Below are positions 4,871 to 54,316 of a stretch of 64,000 nucleotides of DNA, piece after piece; position 1 is the first letter of the stretch, and each line of letters opens with the position of its first letter. The stretch is from positions 860,277 through 924,276 of the forward strand of contig RDEW01000027.1 of assembly GCA_011109175.1 (NCBI GenBank), written 5' to 3'. The translations under genes were made by a program, and so were the position numbers. The DNA is from Dicyema japonicum. Taxonomy: Eukaryota > Dicyemida > Rhombozoa > Dicyemidae. The notes beneath the pieces were generated by a model. The model did not search any database. It worked only from the letters and a program-made list of their open reading frames with translations, and was not told where the DNA came from.

Positions 4871-4921
4871 TTCATGTTTATTGAATAATTGAAAATCACT
4901 GTGATTGCATCAATTGAATCT

Positions 4922-7375: not shown

Positions 7376-7440
7376 GCTAAATTATATTATCTAAAAAGTG
7401 AAATGAAGAAAAAATTTAATTAAAAAGAATCAATTTACAG

Positions 7441-8666
7441 TCAATAAATATGGTAAACGTTACGGTAGTATAAATTGTTACGTTTTACCCGGCAAACAGC
7501 GTAAATACAGTCAAAATGCACCACAAACGAAACTGATAAACATTGGAGACTCAGATTGAAAAGAACATATTCCACAGTAATTTTTGAAAGGTCAAATTCA
7601 TTGGAAATAGATGGGTCGATGGACATCACCTGCATGAGCACACCATTAGTAAACACGGGGCTCTTCAAACTATTGATATCTCTAAATTCTCCCCATAGTT
7701 TGCATCAATGATATGTTCCGATCTTGGGATGCCGACGACTAGCCCCAAAATGTGCTCTGATATCTGTTGGTTCTGTATTGGATAGAATATCAGATTGGAA
7801 AAAACTGGTAGTGGAATTCGTTGGGTCACAACGACTCCTTCCTTCCAATCAAAGGTCATCACTCCGATGAAAGGGTATTCAAAGGACCGCATGTTTTCGT
7901 AGAAGATTGGAAAGACCACAACTTTGCTCTCGTTGACCACATAGTGTGCCGTAGAATAGCAAGGACTATCGGTTGTCCGCAATTCCGCGAAATGGGATAA
8001 TTTCACATCAAAAGTGTAAAGATAAGTTTTCACGGATCCGTCAAGCTCGGTGAGAATTCCATGAAACACAATTTTATGGCCGACAAAAAACGTGGTGTAA
8101 GAATTGAGGTTCCTTAGTTCAGGGAACTCAAATCTTGTCCATATCCTTTCTTTTATTCGGTAAAAAAAGACTAGGCCATTGAGGGAGTACATAATCTCAA
8201 GAAGGTACTGAGAAATGGGTCGAATAACATCGCTAGTGAGAACAAGGATGGGGTCCAATCCATCCATACAAAATGGCACCAGATGAGCCTTCGACGTTGG
8301 AGGTGGTCGAATGTGTCCCTGAACATCCACACAGGACCATGCTCGGTCTCCAAATAAAGAAAATTGTTCAAAGCGGTTTGAGTACCGATGATGATGGCAT
8401 CCTCCAAAACGGTAAAGAGTGTCCCCCATAATACAGAGTTTTTGCTCGTCGACTATTTCAGAATTAATATATTCTTCAGAAATACAGTCAGCCTTTAACG
8501 TCGAAAGGTTTTTGATCTTCTTCAAGAACTCCATCCTTCGTTTAGTTAGCATGTTCTGTATTAGGAAATTCCAGCTGCGACATACGAGCCTGAGGGAAAT
8601 CAGCTGTGGAGAGGGAATGTATTGAAGGATTAGATTCTGATGGTTCAAATTTATGTCGTCACACAT
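7441..8666 (-). CDS. F-box/kelch protein, FBXO42-like
   Basis: The product is probably an SCF ubiquitin-ligase substrate adaptor. The N-terminus (residues about 8-45) has an F-box pattern, LILQYIPSPQLISLRLVCRS then W. It is followed by kelch-like beta-propeller strands (LYRFGGC at about 85, YSLNGLVFF, HKIVFHG, LYTFDVK). Spacing of the FGGC strand after the F-box resembles FBXO42. Exon 1 (8666-7671) is a long single exon that stops at 7665 if unspliced. A GT...AG intron of 41 nt (7630-7670) joins it in frame to 7629-7441, giving 394 aa. That intron is longer than others here, so the 333-aa version or a frameshift are alternatives. Substrate unknown. Confidence 0.65.
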
Positions 8667-8999
8667 AGAACAACATAAAACAAAATTTAAATTAAATAAA
8701 TAATATTTAATTATTAAGAATAAAATGAATGTTTAATTTCCTGTTACTTTTTGAATATAATAAATTTCACACAGGCCCTTATCCAGAACACTCCAGTGAA
8801 TATAAATGAAGCAATCGGAACCACATACCGCCAGACAATCGCGTTGGCCGTGGAATATGCCTCTGCTACGTAGAGATTCGCGGTATCAGAGGCCACTATC
8901 CAAAGACTAAACTTACTGCAAAGGAAAACAATACGTATGCTGGGACCACAATGTGGAACAAAAATACCTCCCCGGTTGACGGAAACTACAACTCGTAGA
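8667..8999. other. intergenic upstream of F-box gene
   Basis: A 94-codon minus-strand frame (8744-9028) overlaps LINE debris and shows no recognisable domain. I do not call it a gene. Confidence 0.4.
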
Positions 9000-27398: not shown

Positions 27399-29782
27399 TC
27401 ATTTGTCCACCAATCCATGGATAGTTAGAAAATGAATTTTTAGCTGTTCAAAGTCTACATTAGTTGACTGAACGTCAGAAGCCGTAGAGATCATGAAAGG
27501 AGGAACACAATGAAGACGTTTGTAAAGCGTCTTAAAAGATTTAGTTTGAGGCATTAGCATTAACAAACTGTAGAGACATTTAAACAAGGAACCATTATGG
27601 TTTGGATCGACCAACTGTAATCTGAGATCTACACAATAAGCAATCATAATTTACATGAGAATACAGGCAGTTCTAAAAGCTGTACGAGCTTGTCAATATC
27701 AACCAGCAAATCCACACTCAGTTCAATCAGAGGACTAAAATATCATGAAAATGTAAACAAGTGCTCAACAAGCCACAAGGCATGAACGTAATTTTTAGTA
27801 GCAGACAGAGAGTGACCACGGAAATCGGACTGTAGGCCCAGGTCTTATATAGAGTCCGGAACAAGGCATGGGCCGACTAAGATGCTAAAAGGTAACTCAC
27901 TTGGGAGTCGAATCGTGTAAGTGATGTTCTCAAGGAAAAAAAGACAGGACAAGTCATCATGACAACGTTCAGGACTTTAACAGAATTTGAAATAAATGAG
28001 CGGTCTTTGTCGAAGGAAATAATGATTGAGATGGAGCTGAACACGACTGAAGGAGAAATACGTTTAGCCAGTTCTCTAGCAGTTCACAATAAGCCATACA
28101 TGACAACGGAGGATATTTGAGACTCCTCGTTTCTCTCTTTGAACCATTCCACCAGTCTGAATACGAACACGTTGAAAAACGGGGACAAATCATGACTGTT
28201 CGACAAATCATTCCACCACTCCATTGAAGAGAATTCAGAGACTCCAGGAATCTCAGCAAAATCTGTGGACGTCACGATCTTGTAGATAAAGTCAAAGCAC
28301 AGTGATGTAGATAGGGAATCCTTTAAATCATTCAGACTCTCACAATTTCAACAGCGTCAACGGAAGGGATAATGCCCTCAAAGATAACGAATATCACGGA
28401 GAAGAAGGAGTCGAACTTGTAGATAATCTATATGTTAGGGAATCTTTACTCTCCGGGGGATGTACTCAATCAGTTTGATCAATGTGTTCAACGTGGTAGA
28501 CCTCACTTGAGTGTTTGAGGATCCGAGGGAAAAAATCATCGTGGAAATCAGCTGATCTTGGGAGGATCTATGGATTAAAAGACCGCATACTCAAGAAAAT
28601 AAACGCCCTCATGTTCTTCCAGCATGTCCCCCTGGGAGACAACTAAATCTATGAACAGGTCGAAACAGTAGGACGCACATTGTACCACACCTAAAATTAA
28701 CTCAGCAATGTACGCTCAGTATTCGATTCAGTCACAATGCACGAGATGAGGGCTTCAAATATGTTAGGCGACAGTCCACTCAACTGTTTCTTGTCAGAAA
28801 GTCGTAAGAAGGTCATCATCCATGAGATCGCCACCTCCTTAATGTGCTTCCCTATAATACAGAGTTCGATTACTTTGATCGAGGACATTCCTGGCCACAG
28901 TGTGAGCACAGGCCATAAAGTCGAAGGTCTTTACCTTTGACTCAATCGAATCCAGCAGATTACCCAATAGTTGAGTAGTTCTTTAAATTTAGCTCAACAT
29001 ATACTGGAGGATGATCTCCGACTCTTTGAAATCCAAAAAGGCGAAAATTCCGTCCAACAAATCGGGTAAGAAGTCCGCTAGATGCAAGTCAGGCATCCCG
29101 TTCAACACATTCAGCCACGAGATGAGGAAGAGGGATGTGCAAGGATTAACTGTGTACATGTAAGACTTAATAGTGTCCACAAAGTTGTCCATGGCAATAT
29201 ATCCGCTAGCCAACACAATATCCTGTATATTCAAATAATTGAAACCTTTACTATGCGGTCAACAACTGTGAACGCTCCAATCACTGAATTATCGGGGTCA
29301 TTCGATACCTATGTTGAGAAACTACGATACTTTGTAGAGACAGTCAAAGATTTGAGTGAAGTATGGCATTATCTCATTCTGGACTACATTAGCCACGTGA
29401 GCTAAAGCCTCACAGGCATGGTACCGCACTCGATTGTCTTCAAATTCGAAGCACTTAATTATGAAAGGAATAATTAAGGAGGCGTATTCTTTACTGCGCT
29501 GAACCATGAGTATATTAGGTACCTCATCCAAAGCGATCACAGTTGAAGAGATCCCTATAAGTCCCCCAATTCGATGAGTCGGCGATCGGGAGTCAGCGCA
29601 CTCAATGAGATTCCTTATTATGTCTTTCATGACTACATCACCCTCGTAAGAGAGTTTACGAACAGTACTGGAATGAGAGAATTCAAAAACATTTCTAATT
29701 CCTTTGCTCCTTTCATTCTATCTGTGGATTTGTCACTTTTGAGTAATTTAATAGTGTTGTTGATAGAAAGATCCTCAAACAT
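27399..29782 (-). CDS. VAC14: VAC14, PIKfyve complex scaffold
   Basis: VAC14 is the HEAT-repeat scaffold that holds PIKfyve and FIG4 on endosomes for PI(3,5)P2 synthesis. From ATG at 29782 the minus strand reads MFEDLSINNTIKLLKSDKST. Introns at 29643-29668 (26 nt), 29309-29330 (22) and 29223-29245 (23) are in frame. Matches in order: HRIGGLIGISSTVIALDE, DNRVRYHACEALAHVANVVQ, SNDPDNSVIGAFTVVDRIVK, LISWLNVLNGMPDLHLADFL, HIKEVAISWMMTFLRLSDKK and, at the C-terminus, LRLQLVDPNHNGSLFKCLYS then LLMLMPQTKSFKTLYKRLHC, the VAC14 signature end. The human protein has 782 aa; this one is somewhat shorter. The middle (about 28860 and 28300-28680) contains at least one frame change I could not explain by a clean microintron. 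Confidence 0.88.
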
Positions 29783-34929: not shown

Positions 34930-35577
34930 TACTCCATTAACTTACTATGAGGGATCTTGCGAACAAATCCAGGTTCCTCATGTGGGACATCTGCCGCTGC
35001 AGCAAGATTCCGCGCAAAGACCTTATAAACATGGTTGAGCTGCAACGTATCACAGCTCTAGTGCTCGTGCTCTCCTTGACAGTTGTGGTCATCTGTTCCC
35101 CACTCCTTTAGATCAGTACCCTCTTTGCCTACAGCCATTCTCTTGAGTTCACTCACAGATATAGCAGTACTGAATCTGCCACTGCAGAGCTCCGCCAAGT
35201 ATGGACAACAATTTCAGGGCATTCGGGATAGCCTGCTACGTGCATGAAGGACTACCTGCCTCACCCATTCTTTTTGGTCAGCTGCCACAACGCTCTCGGA
35301 TATGGCAAGAATTATATTCATACCATCAGGTAACACAAGTGACCCTTCTCCTTTTTTCCTTTCAACATTTTTATTTTTACCAACTCGAGAGAGTTTTAAC
35401 GTCACCGAATCGAAAGCATTTCAAAAATGAATAAAAAATAAATATTTTAAATAAAAAACATTTAATTGTGAAATATTAGTTTAATATTTTCAATAAATTG
35501 TGTATCTAAGGACAAATATTTTCAATAAATTGTGTATCTTTTTTTGGTTGAGGTGGTGACGTCCCTCTACTTGCACT

Positions 35578-37278
35578 ATGTCTTCTTCGTATTGCTTACC
35601 AGTTTCTCCCCTCACTCTTGGATCCCTCAACTGCCGAGGCCTCAATCAGTGCTACAAGAAACAACAATTGGCGCGTGATCTGAGTAAATACAACATCTCT
35701 GTCTGTTGTTTGCAAGAGACGAAAATAACCGAACAATCTGCAGAACTGTTTCAGAATTTTTACCTTTTGACCCTCACACCAGACTGCAGGCACTATGGGC
35801 TCGGATTTGCTGTTCATCGGCACTTGTTTCACTGTGTCTCAAGAGTATGGGCAGTATCTGACCGTGTCGCGGTGTTACAAATCAAATGCGGAAACAAACT
35901 CAACTCAGTGATCTCCATCATAAATGTATATGCCCCAACCGGAGCACGTGTATCAACGAATATCGAAGAACTGGATACGTTTTACTCTACTCTCACAAGT
36001 GTGTACAACTCACTTTCATCCTCTTACTTTCTTTTTATCGCCGGGGACTGGAACGCCAGGGCCGGAAAAGCAAGACCTGGTGAAACGTGTATTGGATCCC
36101 ACGGTAGAAACCGCCGTAACATCCCCGGAGAGGCATTAATACAATTTTGCACGGCATTCAACCTACTCATATGCAACACTTGTTTCAAGCACCCGGCAAG
36201 ACACAGGACCACGTGGGTTGGTACCAGAAAAGGCAAATCTGGAAACACAGTCAATATATACAATCAGATCGACTATATTATCTGCAAGCAACATCAGAAG
36301 GCCCTCCTACAGGACTCGAGATCTTACGGTGGACTTGAAACAAGTAGCGATCATAAACTTGTGGTCGCCCGGCTAGTACTTAAAAGAATCCATGGAATAC
36401 ACGGGAAACACAAAGGCCTTACCTCAGTACGTTTCGACACTGAGAGGTTACGCTACGAAGAATCCACCAAATGTCGTTATAGTGCAGTTCTGAGAGATAG
36501 CATCAACAGTATTAACCAAAATCAGCCGACAAACAGCTTATGGGATGAAATAGTGGTTGCTATCCAAAACACAGCCTTTAGTGTGCTTGGTCACATCACC
36601 AAATCTCGTCACAAACAATGTAATCCGGATATCGGACAACTCTCTGTAACACAGAAAGAGCTCAGACTCCGGATGGAAAACACAAACGCTCCGGAAGATA
36701 TCAAAGTACTGCGCACCCAGAGAGGGAGAGTCTTAACGAAGATCAAACAAATACAAAGATTCCTTGCCAAAAATGAAGCTGAGGAGAAAATCTCAGACAT
36801 ATTAAAGTACAAGAACGGACCAAGAATGTTCAAAGCAATCCGGCTTCTTAGCAGAGAAAACTGTCCAATTTCGTTAACTGTCCATGACAACCTTGGTCAC
36901 GACGTTATCGGGACCATTAACAAAGCAAACGTTCTGGCATCCCATTTTGACCTTATGTTCAACAAACAGGACGCGGCTGACCAAGCAATGAAATCTCGGA
37001 AGTCTTACAAGTACACTCTAACTAGCCCTATTACCATATCCGAAACTCAACAAGCTATTAAAAAATTAAATACCGGAAGATCTGCCGGACCAGACTTCAT
37101 TACTGCAGAACTTTTACAATACGGCCCGGAGGAGCTAATTGAAATGATTACTAACATTTTCAACCGGTCTCTCGAGGGTGCAGATGAACTGGAACTGGGA
37201 AAAGGGTGGCTAATTCCACTACAAAAACCGGGAAAAAGTAAAGGCCCCCTCACAACTTCAGACCTATTATACTCCTAA
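35578..37278 (+). CDS. RTE-like LINE polyprotein, endonuclease and RT N-part
   Basis: The 566-codon frame starts with an APE-type endonuclease. Motifs in order: LGSLNCRGLNQ (residue 16), CCLQETK (about 44), INVYAPTG (about 118), FIAGDWNARAG (about 152), QIDYIIC (about 228), SSDHKLVVARL (about 258). A linker with RLLSREN follows, then the RT begins with LNTGRSAGPDFITAELL and WLIPLQKPGK (about 546). The frame then ends prematurely: a single base appears to be missing in the CACAACTTC run near 37255, after which the protein continues in the next frame at 37260. Active-site residues of the endonuclease look intact. Confidence 0.9.
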   Translation: MSSSYCLPVSPLTLGSLNCRGLNQCYKKQQLARDLSKYNISVCCLQETKITEQSAELFQNFYLLTLTPDCRHYGLGFAVHRHLFHCVSRVWAVSDRVAVLQIKCGNKLNSVISIINVYAPTGARVSTNIEELDTFYSTLTSVYNSLSSSYFLFIAGDWNARAGKARPGETCIGSHGRNRRNIPGEALIQFCTAFNLLICNTCFKHPARHRTTWVGTRKGKSGNTVNIYNQIDYIICKQHQKALLQDSRSYGGLETSSDHKLVVARLVLKRIHGIHGKHKGLTSVRFDTERLRYEESTKCRYSAVLRDSINSINQNQPTNSLWDEIVVAIQNTAFSVLGHITKSRHKQCNPDIGQLSVTQKELRLRMENTNAPEDIKVLRTQRGRVLTKIKQIQRFLAKNEAEEKISDILKYKNGPRMFKAIRLLSRENCPISLTVHDNLGHDVIGTINKANVLASHFDLMFNKQDAADQAMKSRKSYKYTLTSPITISETQQAIKKLNTGRSAGPDFITAELLQYGPEELIEMITNIFNRSLEGADELELGKGWLIPLQKPGKSKGPLTTSDLLYS

Positions 37279-38519
37279 CCTCCATACGAAAAACATTATC
37301 CCTCATTGCTTTAAACCGAATAAAGGAGAGGGTGAACATATTTCTTTCGGACGGCCAAAGTGGATTCCGGACGGGCAGGTCCACGGCTGACGTGGTATGG
37401 GGGCACAGGTGGTATTGTGCCCTGTGCCAAAAATACAAAAAATCTATTGAGATACTTGGTATCGACATGTCCCGTGCGTTCGACTCGGTGGACCGTGGAA
37501 AACTTATGGAAGTGTTGGAGAGTTTTCTACTGCCTGACGATGTCAAAATAATACACTTACTCATGCGGAACACTCAACTTGCCGTCAAAATTGGTGACTC
37601 TACCTCTAACTTTTTTTCGACCTCACGTGGAGTTCCACAGGGGGACTCACTATCCCCGGTCCTCTTTATTGTCTACCTTGAGGCCGCACTAAGAGAGTTC
37701 AGACCCCTGGTTGGCAACAATTATAACGAGATAATCTACGCGGACGACCTGGACTTTGTTTCTGAGGATATTCAAGTACTTCAACACATGCTTAACGTTC
37801 TTCCACACGTATTCTCGAAATGGTTCTTAACCGTTAACACCGATAAAACAGAGTTCACAACACTTACACGCAATGATCGAAGATCGGACGAGTCTTGGAG
37901 AAAGCAAAAGAAGGTGGGTTCGCTTCTCGGGGACTCAGAAGATGTTTCTCGGAGGAAAATCCTCGCAATGTGTGCACTAAAGAAAGTATCGAATATGTGG
38001 GGTCATAAGAAGAGGATGGGATTAAACACCAAACTCAGAATATATAAGGCTTTTGTCATCCCCGTCCTGACCTACAATTCAGGCACTTGGGGAATCTCTA
38101 AACAAGAGATGGACCGTCTTGACGCTTTCCACAGGACACAATTGAAATCAGTAATCAAGATCAAGTGGCCTAAGAAGATCTCAAACAATGACCTCTACTC
38201 GAAGTGCAAATCTGGTATACTATCCGAGGAGATCTTCAGATCAAGATGGAGTCTCTTTGGACATATCTTACGTCTAAATGCTCAAGTACCCGCGAATATC
38301 GCCATGGAAAACTACTTAATGCATACGGGAGCCGGTTTCCGTGGAAGACCAAGAGTCACACTCCCAACTATTTTGAATGGAGACCTGTCGGCTGTGGGAC
38401 TGAAGCTCACTTCCGCAGACGACCTAGATACCTTAAGGGAACTGGCACGAAGTAGAGGGTCCTGGAAAAGGCTGATAGAGAGGATGGCTAGAAATACGGC
38501 ACAAGGGAGGCTTGATTAA
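37260..38519 (+). CDS. RTE-like LINE polyprotein, RT C-part (after frameshift)
   Basis: Continues the upstream frame after one lost base; the first ATG is at 37332. RT motifs: GQSGFRTGRSTADVVWGH, IDMSRAFDSVDR, SRGVPQGDSLSPVLFIVYLE, IIYADDLDFVS with the YADD catalytic box, and WFLTVNTDKTEF. The C-terminal domain has YKAFVIPVLTYNSGTW, FRSRWSLFGHILRLN and GRPRVTLPTILNGDL. Intact to the stop. Apart from the frameshift this copy could be active, and that frameshift may be a sequencing error. Confidence 0.88.
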   Translation, partial: RPIILLTSIRKTLSLIALNRIKERVNIFLSDGQSGFRTGRSTADVVWGHRWYCALCQKYKKSIEILGIDMSRAFDSVDRGKLMEVLESFLLPDDVKIIHLLMRNTQLAVKIGDSTSNFFSTSRGVPQGDSLSPVLFIVYLEAALREFRPLVGNNYNEIIYADDLDFVSEDIQVLQHMLNVLPHVFSKWFLTVNTDKTEFTTLTRNDRRSDESWRKQKKVGSLLGDSEDVSRRKILAMCALKKVSNMWGHKKRMGLNTKLRIYKAFVIPVLTYNSGTWGISKQEMDRLDAFHRTQLKSVIKIKWPKKISNNDLYSKCKSGILSEEIFRSRWSLFGHILRLNAQVPANIAMENYLMHTGAGFRGRPRVTLPTILNGDLSAVGLKLTSADDLDTLRELARSRGSWKRLIERMARNTAQGRLD

Positions 38520-38579: not shown

Positions 38580-39292
38580 ATGTCTGGCGATGAATTCGAA
38601 AGTTTTGAAACCAAAGTAGACGAAATCAGTAAAAAATAAAATAATTATAATCAGCAAGGTTGATTAAAGACATGAATTCACCAAACGAAGAAATTCAACT
38701 GAGAGCTCTAGAAGAAGCCGATAAATACTGCCAGCAAACTCAAGGTTAAACAAAATCAATTTTTTAGGCAAAACTACAAGATTTGACAGGAATATTTTTA
38801 ACAAACCTAAAAAAGATGACGAATCACACCAAAGTAGTTCTCGGAGTAACTTTCAGACCAATTCTTGATGTCAATGGAGGAGGATGCCAAGCGGAGAAGT
38901 CTTGACCGTAAAAAACGTTACCAAAAGCCAACGTATTGAAAGATAAAGGAGTGGAGGATTACAAGAGTGGAAACTATGAAAATTTTACTGAAGTTGTCTA
39001 TTCTACAACTTTAGGCGTTGAAAATGACTAAAGATTACGGTGAAGTTTATTTTTTTATGGAATGCGAGGACAGGTACTACTGATGATGGAAAGGTTCGAA
39101 GACGCATTGAAGGACTGCGAATCATGCTTAGAAGTTATCTTTAATATTATTTTAGTTAACCTGTGATAAAAAAGTCTGTGTAAGAAAGCTCAAGTGTCTT
39201 ATAAAGTTGGGAAGAGACCGAGAAGCATATTCATACTTGGGAGAATGTATCAAACTATTTCCAAGCTATGAGGAACTGTTTAATAGTAATCA
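38580..39292 (+). pseudogene. TTC12: TTC12-like gene, 5' and 3' disrupted by LINEs
   Basis: TTC12 is a TPR/armadillo co-chaperone for ciliary dynein arm assembly. The ATG lies at 38580, immediately after the LINE. Spliced with microintrons (for example 26 nt ending at 38656, then about 23 nt) it reads VDEI-TRLIKDMNSPNEEIQ, close to human VDEISNLIQEMNSDD. MEEDAKRRSLDRKKRYQK, LKDKGVEDYKSGNYE and LLMMERFEDALKDCESCLE follow (TPR1-2), then ...VCVRKLKCLIKLGRDREAYS. At about 39290 it runs into LINE RT sequence. Two frame breaks lie near 38925 and in a T7 run near 39050. The armadillo C-terminal half is absent from the window. Confidence 0.75.
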
Positions 39293-40312
39293 CAGATGGC
39301 TTCAACATGAAGACGCACTTACGTCTATAGATATACAGAAAGCCTTCGACTCGGTTTCGAAGATTCTCCTAACAAAGAAGATCTTTAACTCAAATTTACA
39401 TCCGAGCGTCATGCTATGGCTGGAAAATTTCTTAAATGGCCGACGTGGAAGAGTCCGGATTGGAAAAATTACTTCAAAATCAAGACTACTCCCTAATGGG
39501 GTCCCACAAAGCTACCCTCTGTCTCCTCTCTTATTTAACTTATTTCTACACGATTTACCTAATGATCAGGACACCATGTTTTTATCTTATGCGGACGACA
39601 TGATTATCGCTGCAAGGAACAAATCTGCTGCCAGAGCTGTGGCGGTGGTTCAGTCACACCTCAAACAGGTGTATGACTGGCTATCCAGAAATTTGCTGTC
39701 TGTGTCTGCATCCAAGTCTCAGTTCACGCTATTTACTACGGACAGAAGATTTAAAGGTGGACTTGAGATATTCCTCGGAAACATTCCCATCCCTTATAAA
39801 CGAATCCAGAAGATCCTTGGAGTAACTTTCGATAGAAGCCATCGTAAAGAAGAGCCCCTTCCTTCCTACTGCTTGGATCAGCAAAGTAAACCTTCAAGTT
39901 ATTGCGCCGACGATTGAATATGCTTGTTCTGTCTGGAGATTCGCCATTCCTACTACGAGGGTGGAGCGTGTGAATTCTCTCAGACGGAAAATCATGAGGC
40001 AAATACAATCAGACTCCACATCCGTCCCCAGTCTGCTTTCAGAGGAGACGACAGTGAGAAATGGCCTGGGCTTCCTACGTATTTGAAATAAGCTAGGAAA
40101 CCCATTCAGAGAGAGGGTGGTTCATGCAGAGGAATTCAGATCGGCATTAAAAAAGTGCACTCAGATAGAATTCCTTTGCAGAAATAAAAGAAGACACCTC
40201 AGAAACGATGTTGGTTCACTGGCGAGCATTCGAAAAGAATTCGAGAGATGTTGGAGGCAGGGATCACTTAATTTAGCAAGTTAATTCCTTCTTTCTTGGG
40301 GTTTAAAATAAA
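39290..40312 (+). pseudogene. 5'-truncated LINE RT fused in frame to TTC12 exon
   Basis: From 39290 the open frame that began in TTC12 (39207) continues into RT: SIDIQKAFDSVSKILLTKKI, LPNGVPQSYPLSPLLFNLFL, LSYADDMIIAARNKS and IQKILGVTFDRSHRKEEPL, stopping at 39917. Later frames give the connection domain, and the shared LINE 3' end GGGATCACTTAATTTAGC is at 40261, with an AAATAAATAAATG tail. The Jockey-like family is that of 3730 and 60240. RT motif 1-2 is deleted. Confidence 0.85.
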
Positions 40313-40999: not shown

Positions 41000-43900
41000 T
41001 CACATGCAAGTTTTGCAATAGCAGGAAGCATATTTGGGGATTTTTACTCGCTTACTACTTTCACCACATTTCATGTCGAAAAATATAAGTGGATCGTTTT
41101 TATCAACTATACCTCCACAACACTTGCAGTCGTTCTGAAAGTGCACATTTGCGTTCCAAATTAAAATTTAAAATACTTTAAAATTCACTACTGTCCCAGA
41201 ATCGCAGTTTCCCCCACAATATGAATATGTTACGTTGTTGGAGGAGCATTCGCTATTTCTAAAGACTTCAGTCGTAGTCTTGAGACCACAATTTATCTTC
41301 TAAAACTGGAAATCTTTGAATAACCTCTGGAAGCACAGATCTCGATGTTTATATCAGTTATTTCGATTACATTATCTAAATATTGGTCCTTCTTCGTAAA
41401 GATGAAGGTTATTTGCTGAGCCAAAATTGGCTTCATGAACAGTAGGGATGATTTCTGAGGATATCGAACAATCATAGTCTAAGCATTAGTCTCATGGATG
41501 ACCTGATCGTGTTCAAGCCCGTCGGCAGATTCAAGAAGTACTTGAATGCTTGAAATAAACGTGTTTTTAGATTTTAGATCAAGGGATATGATTTCAAATT
41601 CTTGCTTGAACTTCACTGTGAAATTCGCGTTGTTTTCTCGGGCAAACCACCCTTCCTCAGAGAGAAGATCCATTGGTGATTCTTCACTGGATGTTACTTG
41701 GAAGTGATCTTTGTTTTCTTGTGTAAATATAGAAACAGCATTGCAAGCTAAATTCTCAGATCAAAAATTACTTTCCGGGTATTTTATGGTGGTCTTCGGT
41801 ATTTCTAACGATTACAACAAAATTTACCGTCGACTTTATTTTTAAAGCATCCCCTGACCACAAACTTATTGACAGAAACAGAAGAGTCAGTGAATTTTAG
41901 GATGAGCGTGTCAGTCAAAAAAGTTGCATTTTCAGTTTCAATATGATCAAATTTGACCAAACCACTCAAAGTTAACAAATTAGTCTAATTCTGCTTAAAA
42001 CTTACTACCTTGTAATATTTTTGTCCCATGTACTCATGTTCGATGTTTAACGAAACAAAGTTTTGGTTTGGGACAGTGAATTCGATTTCAGTGATAGTCG
42101 CTTCTAAATGTCTTGGGAATTCCAATTTTAAAAATGGGTTGATGTCATGAAGACGAGGAATCCATTCCTTCAATCAATTTCATCAAAATTACAATTTCGT
42201 TGGAGAATATGTTGGAAGGATGTGAATCTACTTGGAAACTCGAAGCTGAAATTAGCACGTGTTCATAATTTTGAGAACTGGCAATTTCAGTTACTTTATT
42301 TAGACAGGCTAAACAAATAAAAAGAGCACTACCAGTAGGGGGATGTTTACAAGACACAGTGACGTTTAATGGTTTTTTGGTAGTGGTTGCTATAAATTAA
42401 AATGAACAATACAAATAGTGGAGACATTAGATATCACGACGTCTAAAAATTAAAAAAAATAAAAACTATCGTCTGAACAGCCCACAATATCAACAGAAAT
42501 AACTCTAAGGTTAGGACATGAGGAAATGTTGTAAAAATATCCACAGTTGAATTTAATGGATAAATATTGTACTACGAGAGGACCTGAAGAACCAAAATTC
42601 ACGTGTAAATTATGTGAAGAAAAATCGAGTTGATAAGTCTCAAATTAATAAAAATAATACGGAATGGTATTTTAACTCGTTGGAATAATTCCCCGTTTAA
42701 AATTTCGACGGAGATGACACCAGACAGCTGAATATTTAAAGATAATATTTTTGGATTGAATAATTTAAATCGGAAAGTAAGAAACGGGTCCTCTGACTCA
42801 GTAGTCCAAAATCCGGAGTCAGTAAAAATGTTAGAGACAGGATGATCGAGGGTGGAAGGACTAGAATGAACCTCAATGAGTGATCTAGGAAATTCAGAAG
42901 GTGGAGAAGAACAATAATCTAGAGAAAATAAAAATAATTACTAGGTAGAGAACGGGAGAAGTCAAAGCAGAAACTGTGGAAGATTTAAGCGTAGAAGATT
43001 TTTGAGTAGATGAAAACTTAGCTGTGGTCGGAGTAGAATATTCGAAAGTTGAAGGTTTGTTTTCAGCTTAAAAATTATTAGAATAAGAATTTACTTGTAA
43101 TCGATGGCAAAGGAAACGTGGTTTTAATTCAGTAGATCGGGAAGGCAAAATCAATTCTGTAGAGTGAATTTTAGTAGTTTTAAATGTTGGTTCAGGCAAC
43201 TGTTTAGATGTAGGTGATTGAGTAGAAGATTTTGTTTCAAAGGTAGTTAATTCTTATTTACCATTTAAAATGATATAGCTCACCTGTAATTGTAGGAATA
43301 ATTTTTGTAGTAGCTTTCTCAGTTAAAATAGTTGGAATAAACTTTTCAGTTGTTACAGGTTCTGTTGTGAACATCTCTTCTGTAGTAAAGAATTCTGTAG
43401 TATAGAATTCCGTAGTAAAATCTGAAGTTGTCGTGATCTCTTCTAAACATAACGAACATTATATTCTTAACGAGTTATTGTAGGCATAATATTCGTTGTT
43501 TCCATTTCAGTAACATATGGCGGTATTATTTTTTGTGTTGTTTGTGATTCTGTAGTGTAAATTGGAATTTCTGTGGTAGAACCAAGAGTTTCTGTTGTAG
43601 TTATCTCTTCTAAACAATATGAACAATATATTCTTAACGCGTTATCGTAGGCATAATTTTCGTTGTTTCCTTTTCAGTAACAATTGGCGGTATTATTTTT
43701 TGTGTTGTTTGTGATTCTGTAGTGTGAGTTGGAATTTCTGTGGTAGAACCAAGAGTTTCAGTTGTAGTTATCTCTTCTAAACAATATAAACAATATATTC
43801 TTAACTCGTTATTGTAGGCATGATTTTTGTTGTTTCCTTTTAGTAACAATTGACGGAATTATTTTTTGTGTTGTTTGTGATTCTGTAATGTAAATTGGAA

Positions 43901-46900
43901 TTTCTGTGGTAGAACCAGAGTTTCAGTTGTAGTTATCTCTTCTAAACATATGAACAATATATTCTTAACTAGTTATCGTAGGCATAATTTTCGTTGTTTC
44001 CTTTTCAGTAACAATTGGCGGAATTATTTTTTGTGTTGTTTGTGATTCTGTAGTGTGAGTTGGAATTTCTGTTGTAGAACCAAGAGTTTCAGTTGTAGTT
44101 ATCTCTTCTAAACATTATGAACAATATATTCTTAACTAGTTATCGTAGGCATAATTTTCGTTGTTTCCTTTTCAGTAACAATTGGCGGAATTATTTTTTG
44201 TGTTGTTGTGATTCTGTAATGTAAATTGGAATTTCTGTTGGTAGAACCAAGAGTTTCAGTTGTAGTTATCTCTTCTAAACAATATGAACAATATATTCTT
44301 AACTAGTTATCGTAGGCATAATTTTCGTTGTTTCCTTTTCAGTAACAATTGGCGGAATTATTTTTTGTGTTGATTGTGATTCTGTAGTGTGAGTTGGAAT
44401 TTCTGTGGTAGAACCAAGAGTTTCTGTTGTAGTTATCTCTTCTAAACAATATGAACAATATATTCTTAACTAGTTATCGTAGGCATAATTTTTGTTGTTT
44501 CCTTTTCAGTAACAATTGGCGAAATTATTTTTTGTGTTGATTGTGATTCTGTAGTGTGAGTTGGAATTTCTGTGGTAGAACCAAGAGTTTCTGTTGTAGT
44601 TATCTCTTCTAAACATATGAACAATATATTCTTAACTAGTTATCGTAGGCATAATTTTTGTTTCCTTTTCAGTAACAATTGGCGGAATTATTTTTTGTGT
44701 TGATTGTGATTCTGTAGTGTGAGTTGGAATTTCTGTGGTAGAACCAAGAGTTTCTGTTGTAGTTATCTCTTCTAAACAATATGAACAATATATTCTTAAC
44801 TCGTTATTGTAGGCATGATTTTCGTTGTTTCCTTTTCAGTAACAATTGGCGAATTATTTTTTGTGTTGTTTGTGATTCTGTAATGTAAATTGGAATTTCT
44901 GTGGTAGAACCAAGAGTTTCAGTTGTAGTTATCTCTTCTAAACATTATGAACAATATATTCTTAACTAGTTATCGTAGGCATAATTTTTGTTGTTTCCTT
45001 TTCAGTAACAATAGGCGGAATTATTTTTTGTGTTGATTGTGATTCTGTAGTGTGAGTTGGAATTTCTGTTGTAGAACCAAGAGTTTCAGTTGTAGTTATC
45101 TCTTCTAAACAATATGAACAATATATTCTTAACTCGTTATTGTAGGCATAATTTTCGTTGTTTCCTTTTCAGTAACAATTGGCGGAATTATTTTTTGTGT
45201 TGTTTGTGATTCTGTAGTGTGAGTTGGAATTTCTGTGGTAGAACCAAGAGTTTCTGTTGTAGTTATCTCTTCTAAACATTATGAACAATATATTCTTAAC
45301 TAGTTATCGTTGGCATAATTTTGTTGTTTCCTTTTCAGTAACAATTGGCGGAATTATTTTTTGTGTTGATTGTGATTCTGTAGTGTGAGTTGGAATTTCT
45401 GTGGTAGAACCAAGAGTTTCTGTTGTAGTTATCTCTTCTAAACAATATGAACAATATATTCTTAACTCGTTATTGTAGGCATAATTTTCGTTGTTTCCTT
45501 TTCAGTAACAATTGGCGGAATTATTTTTTGTGTTGTTGTGATTCTGTAGTGTGAGTTGGAATTTCTGTGGTAGAACCAAGAGTTTCTGTTGTAGTTATCT
45601 CTTCTAAACATATGAACAATATATTCTTAACTAGTTATCGTAGGCATAATTTTTGTTGTTTCCTTTTCAGTAACAATTGGCGGAATTATTTTTTGTGTTG
45701 ATTGTGATTCTGTAGTGTGAGTTGGAATTTCTGTGGTAGAACCAAGAGTTTCTGTTGTAGTTATCTCTTCTAAACAATATGAACAATATATTCTTAACTA
45801 GTTATCGTAGGCATAATTTTTGTTGTTTCCTTTTCAGTAACAATTGGCGGAATTATTTTTTGTGTTGTTTGTGATTCTGTAGTGTGAGTTGGAATTTCTG
45901 TGTAGAACCAAGAGTTTCTGTTGTAGTTATCTCTTCTAAACAATATGAACAATATATTCTTAACTCGTTATTGTAGGCATAATTTTCGTTGTTTCCTTTT
46001 CAGTAACAATTGGCGGAATTATTTTTTGTGTTGTTTGTGATTCTGTAGTGTGAGTTGGAATTTCTGTGGTAGAACCAAGAGTTTCTGTTGTAGTTATCTC
46101 TTCTAAACAATATGAACAATATATTCTTAACTCGTTATTGTAGGCATAATTTTCGTTGTTTCCTTTTCAGTAACAATTGGCGGAATTATTTTTTGTGTTG
46201 TTTGTGATTCTGTAGTGTGAGTTGGAATTTCTGTTGTAGAACCAAGAGTTTCAGTTGTAGTTATCTCTTCTAAACAATATGAACAATATATTCTTAACTC
46301 GTTATTGTAGGCATGATTTTCGTTGTTTCCTTTTCAGTAACAATTGGTGGAATTATTTTTTGTGTTGTTTGTGATTCTGTAGTGTGAGTTGGAATTTCTG
46401 TGTAGAACCAAGAGTTTCTGTTGTAGTTATCTCTTCTAAACATATGAACAATATATTCTTAACTCGTTATTGTAGGCATGGATTTTCGTAGTTTCCTTTT
46501 CAGTAACAATAGGTGGAATTATTTTTTGTGTTGTTTGTGATTCTGTAATGTAAATTGGAATTTCTGTTGTAGAACCAAGAGTTTCAGTTGTAGTTATCTC
46601 TTCTAAACAATATAAACAATATATTCTTAACTCGTTATTGTAGGCATGATTTTCGTTGTTTCCTTTTCAGTAACAATTGGATGAATTATTTTTTGTGTTG
46701 TTTGTGATTCTGTAGTGTGAGTTGGAATTTCTGTGGTAGAACCAAGAGTTTCAGTTGTAGTTATCTCTTCTAAACAATATAAACAATATATTCTTAACTC
46801 GTTATTGTAGGCATAATTTTTGTAGTTTCCTTTTCAGTAACAATTGGCGGAATTATTTTTCGTGTTGTTTGTGATTCTGTAATGTAAATTGGAATTTCTG

Positions 46901-49900
46901 TTGTAGAACCAAGAGTTTCAGTTGTAGTTATCTCTTCTAAACAATATGAACAATATATTCTTAACTCGTTATTGTAGGCATGATTTTTGTAGTTTCCTTT
47001 TCAGTAACAATTGACGGAATTATTTTTCGTGTTGTTTGTGATTCTGTAATGTAAATTGGAATTTCTGTGGTAGAACCAAGAGTAGTTATCTCTTCTAAAC
47101 ATGATCAAGATTTATTATAACTCGTGATTGTTGGCATTACTGTTTTTGTCATTTTTTCTGTCACTTCAGTCGTTATTGGAATTATCTCTTCTGTTGCATG
47201 TTCGGTTTTATTTGTGTATTTCATTGTTGCTGTTATTTTTATTTATTAATCTTACTTTCTTTAATCGTCGATATTAATTTTCTAATCGTTGATGTCATCC
47301 GTTCTGGACTTTATATTATTTACCATCACCTGTTGTCGTCGGCCTATGTTTTTCATCTTTCAACGTGCTCGGTACTTCTTTGCTATATTAATTACTTTTA
47401 CCTATTTCATTTTTTCTTGTTGTCTGTACCTCTTTTTTCTCTAAATATTAATCCATGTTTTTACTTGGACAGCCAATTATATTAATTTTTGCCAAATTAT
47501 TTGTAATTATTTTATTTGTCAATGGATTTATGAACGTCATTTTTATTTTTTGTGTTTCGCTGTTAAGTCGCACGTCGAAATTTTCTGTGAACTCTTTCCG
47601 CTAAAATTTTCACGAATAACCATTACTTTTTCTTCGTTGTCTGTCTCTACAATAAGTTTCATTAGTTGCTCCGTCCTATTTACCTCACCATAAATTCTCT
47701 CCAATATCCATTCTTCGTTATTTAACAAGTCTATCTTAATGCTTCCATTCTTGGTTATTCCGACATTTTCGTAATCCATGTCGCCAATCGGAGTTTTTCC
47801 AATCAATCCCAACAATTTTACTGCGTTCTCACATATTCCTTCAATATTACTTACTTTCAACCTTTTGGTCTCTGAGTCGTCATTGGCTGCGTCACGTGGG
47901 GTATTACTATATTTATTAGTTATATTTTACAAATTTTTCCTCCACAGCCTATAACTTTCAGTTGATTCACAAATATGTCATTTTTGGTTATATTTTCGTT
48001 TATTGCATAGAACTCAAACTTTATGTCTCTCGCAGTGAAGTTGTGTTCTAGTATGAGCTCGAAATTCATGCTAAGGGAAATTATATTCTGCAAAATAGCT
48101 ACAAAGTACAACCTTGAGAATATAGTAATTTGAATCAGTATTTTTTTTGATTTTTACGATCACCCTGGCCGCGGAACTCATGTCAAATTTTATTGAAGTG
48201 ATTATTGGTAAGTCATGTTCCCCAAAATATAGGTTCAAAAAGACGTTAGAATCAAAAGCACTGGGATTCCACGCGTCCTGACTAATTTTTGCCATTTCTG
48301 CGGTTTTTCCTATTCCGTTTGAGGAAGATGAAATGATAAAGTAAGTTTCATTTAGTCTTGTTCCTCACAGACATTTTCAATTTTCTGCCCACAGTGGAAT
48401 ATTTTTAAGTTGTTTAGTTTTGCTTGATTTGAGGGATTTCCGTCTAACGTGAATAGTAATTTGAAATAATGATTTTTTCTGGCTGTTTCCGCAATATCGA
48501 ATCTGAAAAAGTTGTTAGAAACAGTCGATTCCTGAATATTAATACTCGGGGTGAACCATTTGATGGATCCATTCTTTTTCATTTTCATTTTTAGCCATTT
48601 TCAGTATTACATTGTCAGCAGATATCACGGCAGCCTGTATCTTCGCAATACGAATGCTTGCGTAAGGAATAGTGAAGTAAATCGCAGTTTCGTTGTCCCG
48701 ACTGTCAAAATTCCATAATTTTGAATCTGACAGAGAATTTTTGATAGTTTCATTATTGCTGGTACTCTGAATGTAAAATAGGTCAGTTTTGGTCAAATCT
48801 CTGTGGTTGCAGACTAAAATAATTTGTGCCAATTATTACTTCCATAGCAGTTACTTTCGTCGGATCCATCACCGCAGTCATCGTGGCCATCGCACGTTGC
48901 AACATATTTGACACATCCTCCGTTGTTGCACACGAATCCTGTTTGGTTTGTGCAAATATGCGATCTGCAGTCGATTTCGTCATTTCCAGTAAGGCAGTTA
49001 ACAACTCCATCACATCGAAGTTTGCTGTCGATGCATTCTCCGTATCCACAATCGAATTGGTTTGGCTTGTTACAAATTTCTTGATTTTTAAAAATAAGAT
49101 TACCGCAGTTATCCTCGTCTGTTCCGTCCATGCAGTCTGTTATTCCGTCGCATTTCATGGAAATGTCAATGACTCCGAGAAATATCGCAGCAGAAACTTC
49201 CATTTTTGCAGTTTGCGACTAAATTTAGGCCACAGTCAACTTCCACAGTTTTTTTCGTCTGATCCGTCAAGACAGTTAACTTTTCCGTCGCATTTATCCT
49301 TGAGTGGAAGACATTGTAGTCCGTTTGTGCACATGAACTCTTTTTTAGAACATTTAACGCAGTTTTCGTCAATACATTCAAATTGTCCATTTTTGCAGTT
49401 GCTGGATTAATAAATTTGAAAAGGAATCAACCATTTATGGCATCCTGTAATGATCTCTGAGCCAGATTCATAGTATTCTCCGTGAAGATGACAAGGACAG
49501 TGTTCATGTTCGACACATTTCCCATCAACTACATATAAATTCTAATAGTACCATCCTCATATAGACCATCAGGACAAAAACAGCCTTCGTGGCAGACCGT
49601 TTCGTTAACTGGGAGGAGATATTTAGAGGTTGAATAATCACATTTCTTTATCAGTGAGTTACCACAGGATTGATATTTTTTCCCTTCTGGGCACATGTAA
49701 GCTGCAATAAAGACAGTTTCTTACGGCAAAACGAAGTTGATCTCCACAAAACCTGGACTCCGTTATTACTGCATGTTTGGGCAAATGCCCCTACTGCGGT
49801 ACATAAACAAGCACAGTCTCCACCATAATCACAACTGTAAAGGAAATTGAGAATAATTACTGGCAGTCGAGCAATGTAGTAGAATGTTTCCACCACATCC

Positions 49901-52900
49901 TCAGAAAGGACTGATCGACAAGGCTGAAACATACTCCCTGAAGTTATTATCGAACATTTTTCACTGGCCCACTTGTATTTTTCCTAAAATAGTTATTAGA
50001 AGATAACCTTTAAAGTACATAATTTACTAATCGGGGGGCGGCTTTGATTAAAATTTGTAATGCATTCTAAACTTCCCACGCGCCAAGAATCTGCGAATTC
50101 GTGAGGTGAGCTAAGAGATGCTAGCCCGGGAGTTGTGAAATCGTTTAATTGATTGTCGTCGAAATCCCCACAAAGACCATGGACCTTTCCCATCCACTTT
50201 CGGCTGAGATAAGTGTAGATTGTCGTATATTTGTCCCACAATACTTCAAGACCGATTTTCTCAGCGATCACACGTGCATAAGACTGATGTTTGTAAATGA
50301 TATGAATATTTTTCGCGTGATAGTCGTCACTGAGTTCTCTTCCGTTGATTATAAATTTAGAATTCTCTGAAAGTTGGATACGAGTATTCTCGATTACAAT
50401 TTCTACAGATTTCGTGCACGTGATCCCTTAGAATTAAAAAAATCGAAAACCTGAAGCTCCGCAGGCGAAGTTTTGCATATTTATGATAAAGGATGGATTT
50501 TCCCGTGATTTGACAAGCGTATATACTTGCATTGACCTTCAAAAGAGAAGGCTTTTCCGTCAAAAGTCATGTAGTGGGGATCTCCATAGGCTACACATGT
50601 TCCTGCAAAAATGAGTCATTTAATGTGAACCCCTGCAATCTTCACTTTCTGAGTCCTTAGTCCATATTTTGTTCTCACACGTGCTAAATAATGTTAAATA
50701 GTCTTACAAGGCAGAACATTTTGAGCCTATTTTCTCCCCTGATTTGTAGAATTTATTTCCATGGAGACAGGGACATTGGTCGACCAAAACACAGTCATCC
50801 TAAAACTTAGTTGTAAATGAACCATTTGTGAGAGAACGTATCCTTCCGGACATCCACAACCATGGTAGACCATGTTTTTGCAGTCCTCCATATTATCCTG
50901 GCTTGAATCACAGCGCTTTTGACATCCTTTGATGATCGTCTGTATTTGATTGCTTGGACATTTAAGAGGAGTGAGAGTTCTATCGCATTTTACCACTCCT
51001 CCAACACACGTGCTTTAAATTATGAAAAAACCATCTTACCAATTCATACCTGCAGTTGAAAATTTGTCGTTAATTTTTGTATACAACATTTTTTTCAATA
51101 CACGTGCAGCTTTGTTTGGGGACGCATGTTCCGTAAGCATCGAAAACCATTCCATCGCTGCATCTACATCCAGGGACACAGATAGATTTGCATTCTTCGT
51201 CATTATCTTCACTTTCGTGGCAATGAAGACCACATGGAGATATGCAGTCGTGATAATCGCTGTTCTGAGGACATTTGATGCCTAAGTATGCGTTATAGAC
51301 TGCTCATACCGCATTTTAGCCTGGTATTTGTCCAATTCAAGTTGATTCCTTTCTTCGCGCATTCATACACATACGCCGATATGTGAATGCAAGCAATTTT
51401 AGATGGCTCAACTCCATTGGCAGCACAAATATCCTTTGTGCACATTTGATGGTACTCCTCCGGATTTACAGTCTCAAAGCACGTGGATAGACTTCCATGA
51501 GAGTTCCTAAGTAGGTTGCATTCTAATTCTGCTGAGCTCTAATATAGATAAATCGGTAAATCACTTCAGCTTGGCTTGTACATTCAAGGAGAACAGCACT
51601 CACAGTTTGGCACTGTTCTGTCTTACTAAGTGTGTATTCTTTAGCCAAAGAATTATAGTTGAATTTAATATTCCCACTTTTGGTTTGATACTCATTTTTT
51701 GAGTTGTAGTCGAATGTTCCACACATTCCCAGCGTCTGAAAAGTCAGTTTTTATTTTACTTTTCTGAGGTGCGAGTTACCTAGAATGAGGTAAACTCGTG
51801 ATTGGAGGTCCCAGAGAATGTGAAAACCAAAGCGGGAGAGCATTATGAAGTTTGGCTCGATTTTTCTAATTCTGAAATAGTTCGTTTGTTGTGGAAAATG
51901 AGTCAGAGAAATGTTATTTATATTTATAATCGGTTTTCCGTTTTTTGAATGAACTGCGATTGAGATCGTGTTATGAAGATTCACAAGAATTCGTCTACTA
52001 CAGACCTTATGGTCATTAAAGAGGCCAAATCTGTCCCCCACACTACACAAGGAATTGTCTACGGACACAGAGATGCCTTCGTCGTTCAACTAGAAATCAT
52101 AAATTACACTTACATGGAGAAGCTCGTATATGCACGGATTGCTGTACAAATGCTTAAAGTTTTCGAGATCAAATGTTAGATAATTCCCAATTCCAATGAG
52201 TTGACACTCTCCTGGACATTGAATATTTGGACAATTCCAAAACCCTGACTTGCAGACACTGATTTAACTAAATTTCGAAATTTCTAACCATTCTTTGCAA
52301 TTTTGTCTCAGAACCTCTCCGTTTTGGAAAACTTTTTGTCCGAAATGACAGGGACAGTCCTTCGGTTCAACACACTTTCCGGCCTCATAGAGTGTTCCAT
52401 CGCGACACTGACATCCCGGAGTGCATTCGCTGTTACATTTTTCATACATCCGGGGTAGTGAGGAACACGTGGCACATGAGTTTATGCACTCTGTATAAAC
52501 CATATCCTCAGGGCATTTGATTGCTGTTTTAAAGAAATTAAATTAAAAAATATACGGCATATTTTCGATGTTCTCCAAAAAATGGAGAGTCCAACTTGCG
52601 CACAAATTGAGGAATACTCCTCCAATGTGCACAGAGGACAGCTGTGGCTTCCTCTTGTCCTAACGTTTCCTTGGCATGGCAGTACTCGTTTTTACATCTT
52701 TCATATATTCCCTTTGGATCGACCTATTTGTTAGTTGCTATGGAAACTCGTCTTGTACAGACGTCGAATGCTTTCGAATTGATTGTCCCACATTTTATTT
52801 CTGCTTCTCTCTTGTATTCCTCTCTTGAGCATTTTGGCATAATGGCATTCCCTTTGGGACACTGCGGAGTTAATTCAACTATTTTGCTACTTTTAAATAT

Positions 52901-54316
52901 CCCTCCATGTAAGAATTTGCAAATTCTTCAACATCTTCGTTGGTTACTTTTTCGTGAGTATTAAAATCGTCTGAAAAGTAAAAATTAAGTTTGACTTTGA
53001 ATATTGCCGTCAAATGTTCCACAAAGTCCTTGAATCCCTTTGTTTTGGAAAATATTATTGAATGTGACTTGGATAACTTTTGCATTCGTCTTCTCCCATT
53101 TCACTCGGATTCCGCGTTTGTTTACGTAATGAATGTAATATTCGGATTGAGAGATTTCAAACACTGAAATTGAAATAGTCATCCTTACTTTTTCCGAAGT
53201 AAGTCGTGTTGGTGGGGATATTTTGGTCGTTGACAATAATATCACTTCCAAAAGTGTATATTATGGGATCATTTTCAATAATAATACGGAGTTGCTTAAA
53301 TAACTCAAATATCGACTTTTTTGCATTTCAGGCAACTGTCACAATTCGTAGGACGGATGCTGATTGCGATGGAACTGGAAGGATTCGCAGCTAGGGTATG
53401 CCAGCATCTCGTGTAAAATGTGTATTCCCTTCCGTCAAACGTCCGGAAGTGGGAATAGGAGGATTCACACGTGGAAAACGGAAGAGCATAGTTGTTTTTT
53501 AAGGTCAAATCTAAAAACTCAAACATTTTCGTTTCATACAAGAGGTTGTATTTTGAACAGAGGCTTGATCTAATGGTTATTCGAAACCGAGTTACCAGAC
53601 TTCTTTGATTGACAGGACACGCATGTATACCTTCCTGGAAATCCCCAGGAACCATTTTTGTTGGTCGAACAACAGTCATCGAAAGTCTTGATAGAATCAA
53701 AACTGTCAGATTCACTCCCGTCAATGTGTTTTTCTCCAAAGCATCGCCCATATTTGTAACAGTACTTTTTATCGACGGAGATTTCTGCAGTTTTACAGAA
53801 TCTAAGAAAAAACTCGACAGAGAATCCTCACAACGAAATCCAGCGAATCCCTGATCGCACTCACAGACATTTGGACCAACGCAGACTCCATTTCGGCATT
53901 TCGGGCTACAAATTGCTGAAATTTATTCCTAATTTTACGTTTATCACACAATTTGCCCGTGTACCCTTCACAACATGCCTGGATCTCCCTTATCCCATTC
54001 CTGTGATTAATCTAACTTCATACTTGGCATATTGGCAAATTTCTGGGCTTTTCTCTTGCATAAATTTCATCAGCTCATTTTTCGAATATTTTGCTGAATC
54101 TCCAGACAGGAGCCAATTGCCATACAGCATATCTATGAAATTTCCGCATAGATCTGTCTTAGTTTCAGTGAAATGTTCTGTTTTGTTGCAGTATCTAAAT
54201 GTGTTCGGAATATTAAACTTTGAAGTTTCTGCGGCATCAATTAAAAAATTTTGTTGGTAGACTAGCAGAAGCAATAGAATCCCAAACATTTGAGTCTTAA
54301 AGTCATAATTTGGCAT
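41000..54316 (-). CDS. giant secreted VWD-C8-TIL/LDLa/mucin/CTCK protein, SCO-spondin-like
   Basis: A large extracellular glycoprotein. From ATG 54316: signal peptide ([19 protein letters not shown]), EGF-like module (53920-53835, [18 protein letters not shown]), VWD1 ([16 protein letters not shown] ... GLCGTFDGN), C8 and TIL ([14 protein letters not shown]), VWD2 ([19 protein letters not shown] ... GMCGTFDYN), C8, TIL, VWD3 ([20 protein letters not shown] ... [10 protein letters not shown]), C8 ([19 protein letters not shown]) and TIL. Four LDLa repeats follow (49400-48830, CDG--C-DG-DE-NC). About six ~140-aa beta-type domains, possibly discoidin-like, flank a Thr-rich tandem repeat (43240-47190). 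A C-terminal cystine knot ([21 protein letters not shown]) ends at 41000. The three VWD units plus LDLa and CTCK recall SCO-spondin and gel-forming mucins. Many exons are split by introns near 25-30 nt; the exact model across 13 kb was not fully resolved. Confidence 0.85.
43240..47190 (-). repeat. tandem array of 167-bp exon-plus-intron mucin units
   Basis: About 22 copies plus divergent edge units. Each unit on the minus strand is a 138-nt exon (46 residues: [20 protein letters not shown], then [19 protein letters not shown], then IMPTIT) followed by a 27-29 nt GT...TTTAG intron. Exons are symmetric, phase 1-1, so copy number can change without breaking the frame. Start points recur at about 43602, 43768, 43933, 44100 and so on to 47083. 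A few copies carry 1-nt exon indels (for example near 44200, 44848, 45535 and 45900), which would break the frame if real. Confidence 0.92.

Follow-up and report, generated by a model that had tools for sequence, protein, structure and literature searches.

We analyzed a 64,000-nucleotide stretch of the genome of Dicyema japonicum (assembly GCA_011109175.1, contig RDEW01000027.1, positions 860,277 to 924,276 of the forward strand), hereafter the window, which forms the end of a 924-kb contig in an assembly of 64.7 Mb in 191 contigs. The minus strand carries a long predicted gene and, within it, a tandem array of short Thr-rich units, each of which appears to comprise a complete exon and its intron (Table 1; all positions are window coordinates). 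Read from its start, the gene model encodes a signal-peptide-like segment, EGF-like sequence, VWD/C8/TIL units and LDL-receptor class A (LDLa) repeats, followed by a region without assigned domain, the Thr-rich array, another such region and a Cys-rich C-terminus. The VWD, C8, TIL and LDLa matches all lie upstream of the array, and the EGF-like Pfam matches fall under the curated cut-off. The tested regions beside the array gave no Pfam match. The Cys-rich C-terminal segment has the look of a cystine knot; it gave no Pfam match and only a weak match to a bursicon chain (E = 1.1). The homologues of the gene are hemocytins, von Willebrand factors, mucin-2 and mucin-5 types, IgGFc-binding proteins and SCO-spondin-like molluscan proteins, those of VWD type being 21-32% identical among the matches listed. 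Judging by its predicted VWD-C8-TIL assemblies, the gene belongs to the hemocytin/von Willebrand factor/gel-forming mucin superfamily. An earlier reading of this DNA, made from the letters only (hereafter the sequence-only reading), had called the repeat a mucin and given the gene no identity; the VWD-C8-TIL-LDLa architecture now places that label within a hemocytin/von Willebrand factor/gel-forming-mucin-like gene. No row among the protein matches listed (12 and 75 rows) bears a dicyemid name, although some rows are nameless and the candidates were limited in length.

Table 1. Coordinates of the repeat array, its flanking units and the domains of the predicted host gene.
Feature	Position in window	Strand	Details
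Inferred host gene	41000..54316	-	predicted; mechanical and by-eye model; ATG at 54316, stop at 41002-41000
Second VWD match	53308-53922		Pfam, 25.4 bits
TIL domain	52267..52542	-	Pfam PF01826, 40.5 bits
C8 domain	51296..51538	-	Pfam PF08742, 55 bits
VWD domain exon	49999..50427	-	Pfam PF00094, 67 bits
LDL-receptor class A repeats	48817..49218	-	Pfam PF00057, 80.9 bits, 3 stretches
Upstream flanking exon, unit 0	47122..47229	-	108 nt, phase 1-1; coordinates by eye
Intron of unit 0	47095..47121	-	27 nt; resembles core intron by eye
Core array, 22 tandem units	43443..47094	-	each with an exon of about 138 nt and an intron of 28 or 29 nt
Unit 1 (array limit)	47094-46937	-	cut at unit boundaries
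Exon of unit 7	45965..46102	-	138 nt, phase 1-1; unit 7 equals the consensus exactly
Intron of unit 7	45936..45964	-	29 nt, GTTAAGAATATATTGTTCATATTGTTTAG
Unit 22 (array limit)	43609-43443	-	cut at unit boundaries
Downstream flanking exon, unit 23	43284..43442	-	159 nt, phase 1-1, diverged homologue; by eye
Intron after unit 23	43283-43253	-	31 nt, unlike the array intron

The core units follow one another head to tail from 47094 down to 43443, at about 167 bp apiece. Tandem Repeats Finder reported 22.0 copies of period 167 at 43427-47083 (95% matches, 0% indels). In the coding direction, each unit opens with a stretch of about 138 nt (AAGAGATAACTACAACAGAAACT...CCTACAATAACGA), after which comes GTTAAGAATATATTGTTCATATTGTTTAG or a near variant. 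The exon is 138 nt long in 13/22 core units and 129-139 nt in the others, and the intron measures 29 nt in 18/22 and 28 nt in 4/22. The exons are of phase 1-1: each ends with the first base of a codon whose other two bases open the following unit. In 20 of the 22 core units this final base is A, giving the split codon A^AA (Lys), and in units 21 and 22 it is C, giving C^AA (Gln). The exon of unit 7 encodes 46 residues, of which 16 are Thr (hand count). The sequence-only reading had described about 22 tandem units of 167 bp, each formed by a complete 138-nt phase 1-1 exon and one short intron, encoding a Thr-rich repeat of 46 residues and gained or lost without change of frame. The repeat finder and the cutting of units bear out the first point, and the lengths, phase and translation of the units bear out the others. 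It had also described the intron copies as varying by 1-2 nt; the intron of unit 0 measures 27 nt. The span it gave (43240-47190) includes the core array and, in addition, parts of the diverged flanking exons 0 and 23; in unit 0, the 3' part of the exon is the diverged homologue of the core exon.

We searched the whole genome for the 29-nt intron motif, allowing at most three mismatches, and obtained 18 matches, all of them inside the array (the four 28-nt introns could not match a 29-nt motif at full length), while the reversed motif gave 0 matches. The repeat peptide was not found beyond the array, the 23 genome matches reported among the best candidates scored all lying within it. A chance origin of the repeated unit is excluded by its copy number. 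The observation of a minisatellite composed of exon plus intron is thus confirmed, whereas the overall interpretation of the sequence-only reading is partly supported, as detailed below. A higher-order repeat of two units was considered and rejected: Tandem Repeats Finder scored a 333-bp period slightly higher than the 167-bp one (6477 vs 6428), but a lag test was not significant (P = 0.073). A second VWD gene, on another contig (C113), was considered as a paralogue with a similar array, but this was not supported: by eye the gene is nidogen-like and rich in EGF, and no such array was present in the stretches that we read, one of them partly masked.

Several properties of the 29-nt segment point to an intron. 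It begins with GT and ends with AG and, if kept in unit 7, would bring both TAA and TAG into the incoming frame. Because 167 is not a multiple of three and these stops are in frame, the unspliced array breaks everywhere, and the longest uninterrupted run across its six frames has 76 codons. With the 28- and 29-nt segments taken out, an open run of 369 codons appears despite frameshifts in some exons, and joining the 16 of units 0-22 (23 units) whose exon length is divisible by three yields 709 residues without a stop. We also moved a 29-nt cut through all 167 positions of the unit, using the nine of 22 units that are 167 nt long and free of exon indels. Twelve positions gave an open frame, all near the proposed site, and among these only the proposed position had GT...AG ends. 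When segment length was allowed to vary, unit 7 contained 13 GT...AG segments of 18-60 nt, and removal of four of these kept a periodic frame open: the proposed segment of 29 nt, segments of 32 and 47 nt that use a downstream acceptor, and one of 44 nt. The frame test therefore does not by itself define a unique intron, and an acceptor 3 nt downstream is also possible. The acceptor region in 43443-47094 reads TTTAGAAGAG; use of the downstream acceptor would shorten each unit by one Glu without shifting the frame.

The splice-site scores of the array intron give a mixed picture, and two of the three comparisons weigh against splicing. Relative to other introns of the same gene, the array intron scores poorly, only 1/21 scoring lower and 20.5% of 1382 decoys scoring as high. 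It is also weak relative to 33 pooled introns (above 5/33; 18.5% of decoys as high). When compared to 12 actin introns placed by homology, it is ordinary (above 7/12; 4.9% of decoys as high). The 21 introns of the gene constitute a selected set of 23-32 nt (17 of the 35 in the automatic model and four found by eye), and the actin-based scoring left out alternatives at GRPxH of locus L035 and one at YLMK of L030, which lie inside a continuous exon. From the frame and the GT...AG ends, we infer that the 29-nt segments would be spliced out in each unit.

An intron of this size is not unusual for dicyemids. Dicyemid introns average 26.2 nt (n = 16; PMC2222250), and those of a Dicyema sp. have a median of 27 nt, roughly two thirds of them being shorter than 30 nt (PMC6543705). 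For D. japonicum, the genome measures 67.5 Mb, its GC content is 36.7% and its introns average 38 nt (PMC6736024). In the present assembly, we tested three positions in each of five actin loci (15 in total), seeking introns of 18-45 nt: 12 contained an intron of 22-28 nt, six of them with a GTTA donor, and the three others lay in continuous exon. A 29-nt intron is thus ordinary in this genome, and what is remarkable is a complete splice unit within 167 bp. Since introns of 22-32 nt are ordinary in dicyemids, an exon together with its intron fits the size of a minisatellite. The sequence affinity of the assembly was assessed on its Pax6-like gene in spliced reading, whose best match is the Pax6 of Dicyema acuticephalum (313 bits; 63% identity over 84% of the query). 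Among the best 120 of 7730 matches, the others that cover more than 70% of the query are 46-54% identical. Against this affinity stand a runner-up filed under the ant Temnothorax longispinosus (307 bits; 65% over 41% of the query) and further rows with 68-73% identity over 45-48% of the query. Judged by this one protein, the affinity to Dicyema has a small margin in bits but a clear one in identity when matches to most of the query are compared.

We further analyzed the variation among units, using core units 2-22 for the substitution and variability statistics (21 units). Substitutions relative to the consensus affect 3.1% of exon positions and 1.6% of intron positions, and 24/138 exon sites and 5/29 intron sites are variable. 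Mean pairwise identity, based on substitutions only, is 97.0% for introns and 95.5% for exons. The sequence-only reading had called the exons mostly constant, which agrees with these values, with the qualification that exon and intron are about equally homogeneous. Neighboring units are more similar than distant ones (Spearman 0.28; P = 0.0024; permutation test), and shared variants occur in many combinations across units. The most diverged copies are the flanking units 0 and 23, and unit 22, at the array edge, is the core unit farthest from the consensus (13 differences). This divergence at the edges is as in arrays that are homogenized in their middle. Together, this is the pattern expected if unequal exchange, slippage or conversion operated on exon and intron as one unit, and the repeated copying of a single intron best explains the 22 introns.

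The best explanation, which we regard as likely, is that a symmetric exon was duplicated in tandem with its intron in a dicyemid hemocytin/von Willebrand factor/mucin-like gene and that the resulting unit acts as a minisatellite. According to this scenario, a single Thr-rich exon of phase 1-1 would have been duplicated together with the adjoining intron, and the 167-bp unit would then have expanded, with unequal exchange, slippage or conversion duplicating, deleting and homogenizing complete splice units, intron included. Each copy would come with both splice sites, 5' and 3', and with an exon that is neutral to the frame, so that copy number could shift while the frame is kept. Under intron definition, splice sites are paired at short range across the intron, and each copy may be recognized through such pairing across its 29 nt. 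Exon skipping would then be unlikely because it requires a 196-nt "intron". Since each of the 22 introns contains in-frame stops, a truncated protein would result if even one of them were retained. The product would carry Thr-rich repeats of 46 residues as a spacer, probably O-glycosylated given its composition, between a domain-rich N-terminal part and the C-terminal part. The array would be expected to be polymorphic in length, and changes in copy number could let the length of the protein evolve rapidly, as the sequence-only reading had proposed. We tentatively extend this scenario to a splice-unit variable number tandem repeat (VNTR), in which the length of the mucin-like domain would change by whole exon-intron units and be capped by protein function and by splicing fidelity. 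The cumulative fidelity of splicing may limit such an array because each added unit brings one more intron that stops translation if retained.

Substitutions within the exon bear on whether the array encodes protein. At sites that vary in at least two units, 10/15 are third codon positions (P = 0.0085). The flanking exons differ from the core unit mostly at third positions as well (22/34; P = 0.00018), with 14/21 over 24 codons and 8/13 over 14 codons in the two stretches, which were picked and aligned by hand. Given this bias in shared and flanking-copy differences, the exon most likely evolved, and was selected, as protein. Other observations weigh against this conclusion. The third-position excess is not significant when all variable exon sites are counted (12/24; P = 0.068) and is absent from sites that vary in a single unit (2/9), which is where sequencing errors would gather. 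In addition, 11 indels occur in the exons of the 21 core units, one of 3 nt and 10 whose length is not divisible by three; 7/21 units have a net frameshift, and the array as assembled lacks a continuous product. The sequence-only reading had recorded scattered 1-nt indels, which are indeed present, and had left the resulting frameshifts unweighed.

As a control for assembly quality, we inspected conventional actin loci of the same assembly and found that the frame breaks in mid-exon, where an intron would not fit, in three of five distinct loci (L030, L034 and L035, the last equal to L036); L031 (equal to L032) and L037, the source of the query, are intact, and the divergent actin-like L033 was not counted. 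Single-base assembly errors are therefore plausible in the array as well. This control has its limits: an internal stop makes L034 a possible pseudogene, some other loci may be pseudogenes too, and indels are denser in the array than in the actin loci. Two pairs of actin loci have equal scores, one inverted and about 36 kb apart (G000:C94:965482-966273 and 1001667-1002458) and one direct and about 14 kb apart (G000:C137:1184227-1184823 and 1197917-1198513). These pairs represent recent duplications or unresolved haplotypes.

The count of 22 may itself be a product of assembly, the true array being longer or shorter and of the same kind, a possibility that we hold less likely than not and that is compatible with tandem duplication of the splice unit. 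Long arrays are prone to misassembly, the indel-rich units point to poor polishing, and exactly two-copy duplications on other contigs could be joining artefacts; on the other hand, the many combinations of shared variants are not what simple stutter would make. The duplications in question, found in sampled stretches of the genome, are ten tandem duplications of exactly 2.0 copies, with periods of 73-253 bp and copies 95-99% alike (L029:4553-4897, 6757-6968 and 7356-7678; L027:9107-9348; L032:341-591; L044:1634-1778, 1974-2335, 7331-7836, 8087-8524 and 8372-8674). No duplication of that kind was found within the window. They reflect either frequent short tandem duplication, the raw material for such arrays, or an artefact of assembly joining.

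Alternatively, the array or the whole gene could be a decaying pseudogene whose frameshifts are real and which has no long product. The preponderance of frame-disrupting exon indels would fit such decay, as would the two or more apparent frame breaks seen by eye in the unique part of the gene. However, no stop occurs in the 16 units (of 23) with an exon length divisible by three, and the broken actin loci make errors plausible, imperfect as that control is given L034 and the denser indels of the array. We consider decay rather unlikely. It is still harder to reconcile the data with a non-coding satellite inside one long intron, in which the flanking phase 1 exons would be joined directly and the repeat skipped. 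The flanking exons are phase-compatible by eye, the frameshifts would then be harmless, and the splice sites of the array score weakly against the gene's own introns; nevertheless, the third-position excess in shared differences and flanking copies and the 709 stop-free residues argue for a coding array, and a 3.7-kb intron would be far beyond the usual dicyemid size, though longer introns exist. We therefore regard such a satellite as improbable. Finally, introner-like mass intron gains occur in other eukaryotes, an intron invasion in Micromonas reportedly being the topic of one paper, but the separate insertion of introns into an existing exonic repeat is very improbable here because all 22 introns share their sequence and the same phase 1 position, the motif was found nowhere else in the genome, and an intron of similar sequence, 27 nt long, occupies the corresponding place in the older flanking unit 0.

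The remainder of the window contains other features. A LINE-like element (long interspersed nuclear element) with an endonuclease and a reverse transcriptase in two overlapping frames lies at 35560-38519 on the plus strand (PF03372, PF00078), and reverse-transcriptase-like fragments were noted by eye near 4222-4909 and 39156-39917. We also detected a Vac14 Fab1-binding region at 29322-29717 on the minus strand (PF12755; 70.4 bits) and a tRNA match at 3370-3452 on the minus strand (31.1 bits, against a gathering cut-off of 29).

If the duplication of a complete splice unit is the correct explanation, intron gain through DNA repeat expansion would become directly testable in an animal, and the array would constitute a natural assay of spliceosome fidelity on many identical, extremely short introns in series. 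It also suggests that introns reduced to about 29 nt allow complete splice units to be carried by a minisatellite process, which would be harder with larger introns.

We compared the array with known systems. In Argiope MaSp2 and in flagelliform spidroin genes, near-identical small introns separate similar exons and are homogenized within the gene, with a mean intron similarity of 97.6% (PMC9779670). The dicyemid array likewise consists of tandem exons of a repetitive extracellular protein with near-identical introns, their similarity being that reported above for the core units, but its repeat is mucin-like and Thr-rich, its intron 28-29 nt and its unit 167 bp; moreover, the alternation of two unit types found in some spidroin genes is not significant here by the lag test. 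In CNN00420 of Cryptococcus neoformans, repeat expansion carries whole introns, the copies are identical or nearly so, and two intron gains are polymorphic between strains (PMC2395259). The dicyemid case resembles it in that a DNA repeat with introns has expanded into near-identical copies and differs in having 22 units, known from one locus in one genome. Canonical mucin VNTRs have their repeats within one large exon (PMC13345508, a preprint). Like them, the dicyemid gene has a domain of tandem repeats, Thr-rich in this case, in an extracellular protein of mucin type, but each repeat is its own exon and no unspliced frame exceeds 76 codons. The PIGSFEAST repeats of Drosophila dumpy, which were considered as possible exon-intron units, were discarded as a precedent, since they form one large exon without introns between repeats (PMC2930355). 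Relative to hemocytin, von Willebrand factor and gel-forming mucins, the gene has in common VWD, C8, TIL and, as in some homologues, LDLa, whereas the regions beside the array have no Pfam match and the cystine knot is putative. Among the listed titles and abstracts of open-licence papers, we recognized no description of a mucin array with one exon per repeat. Homogenized exon-intron repeats are thus already known from spider silk and from one Cryptococcus gene, and what is new here is their occurrence in a mucin-type domain with one exon per repeat.

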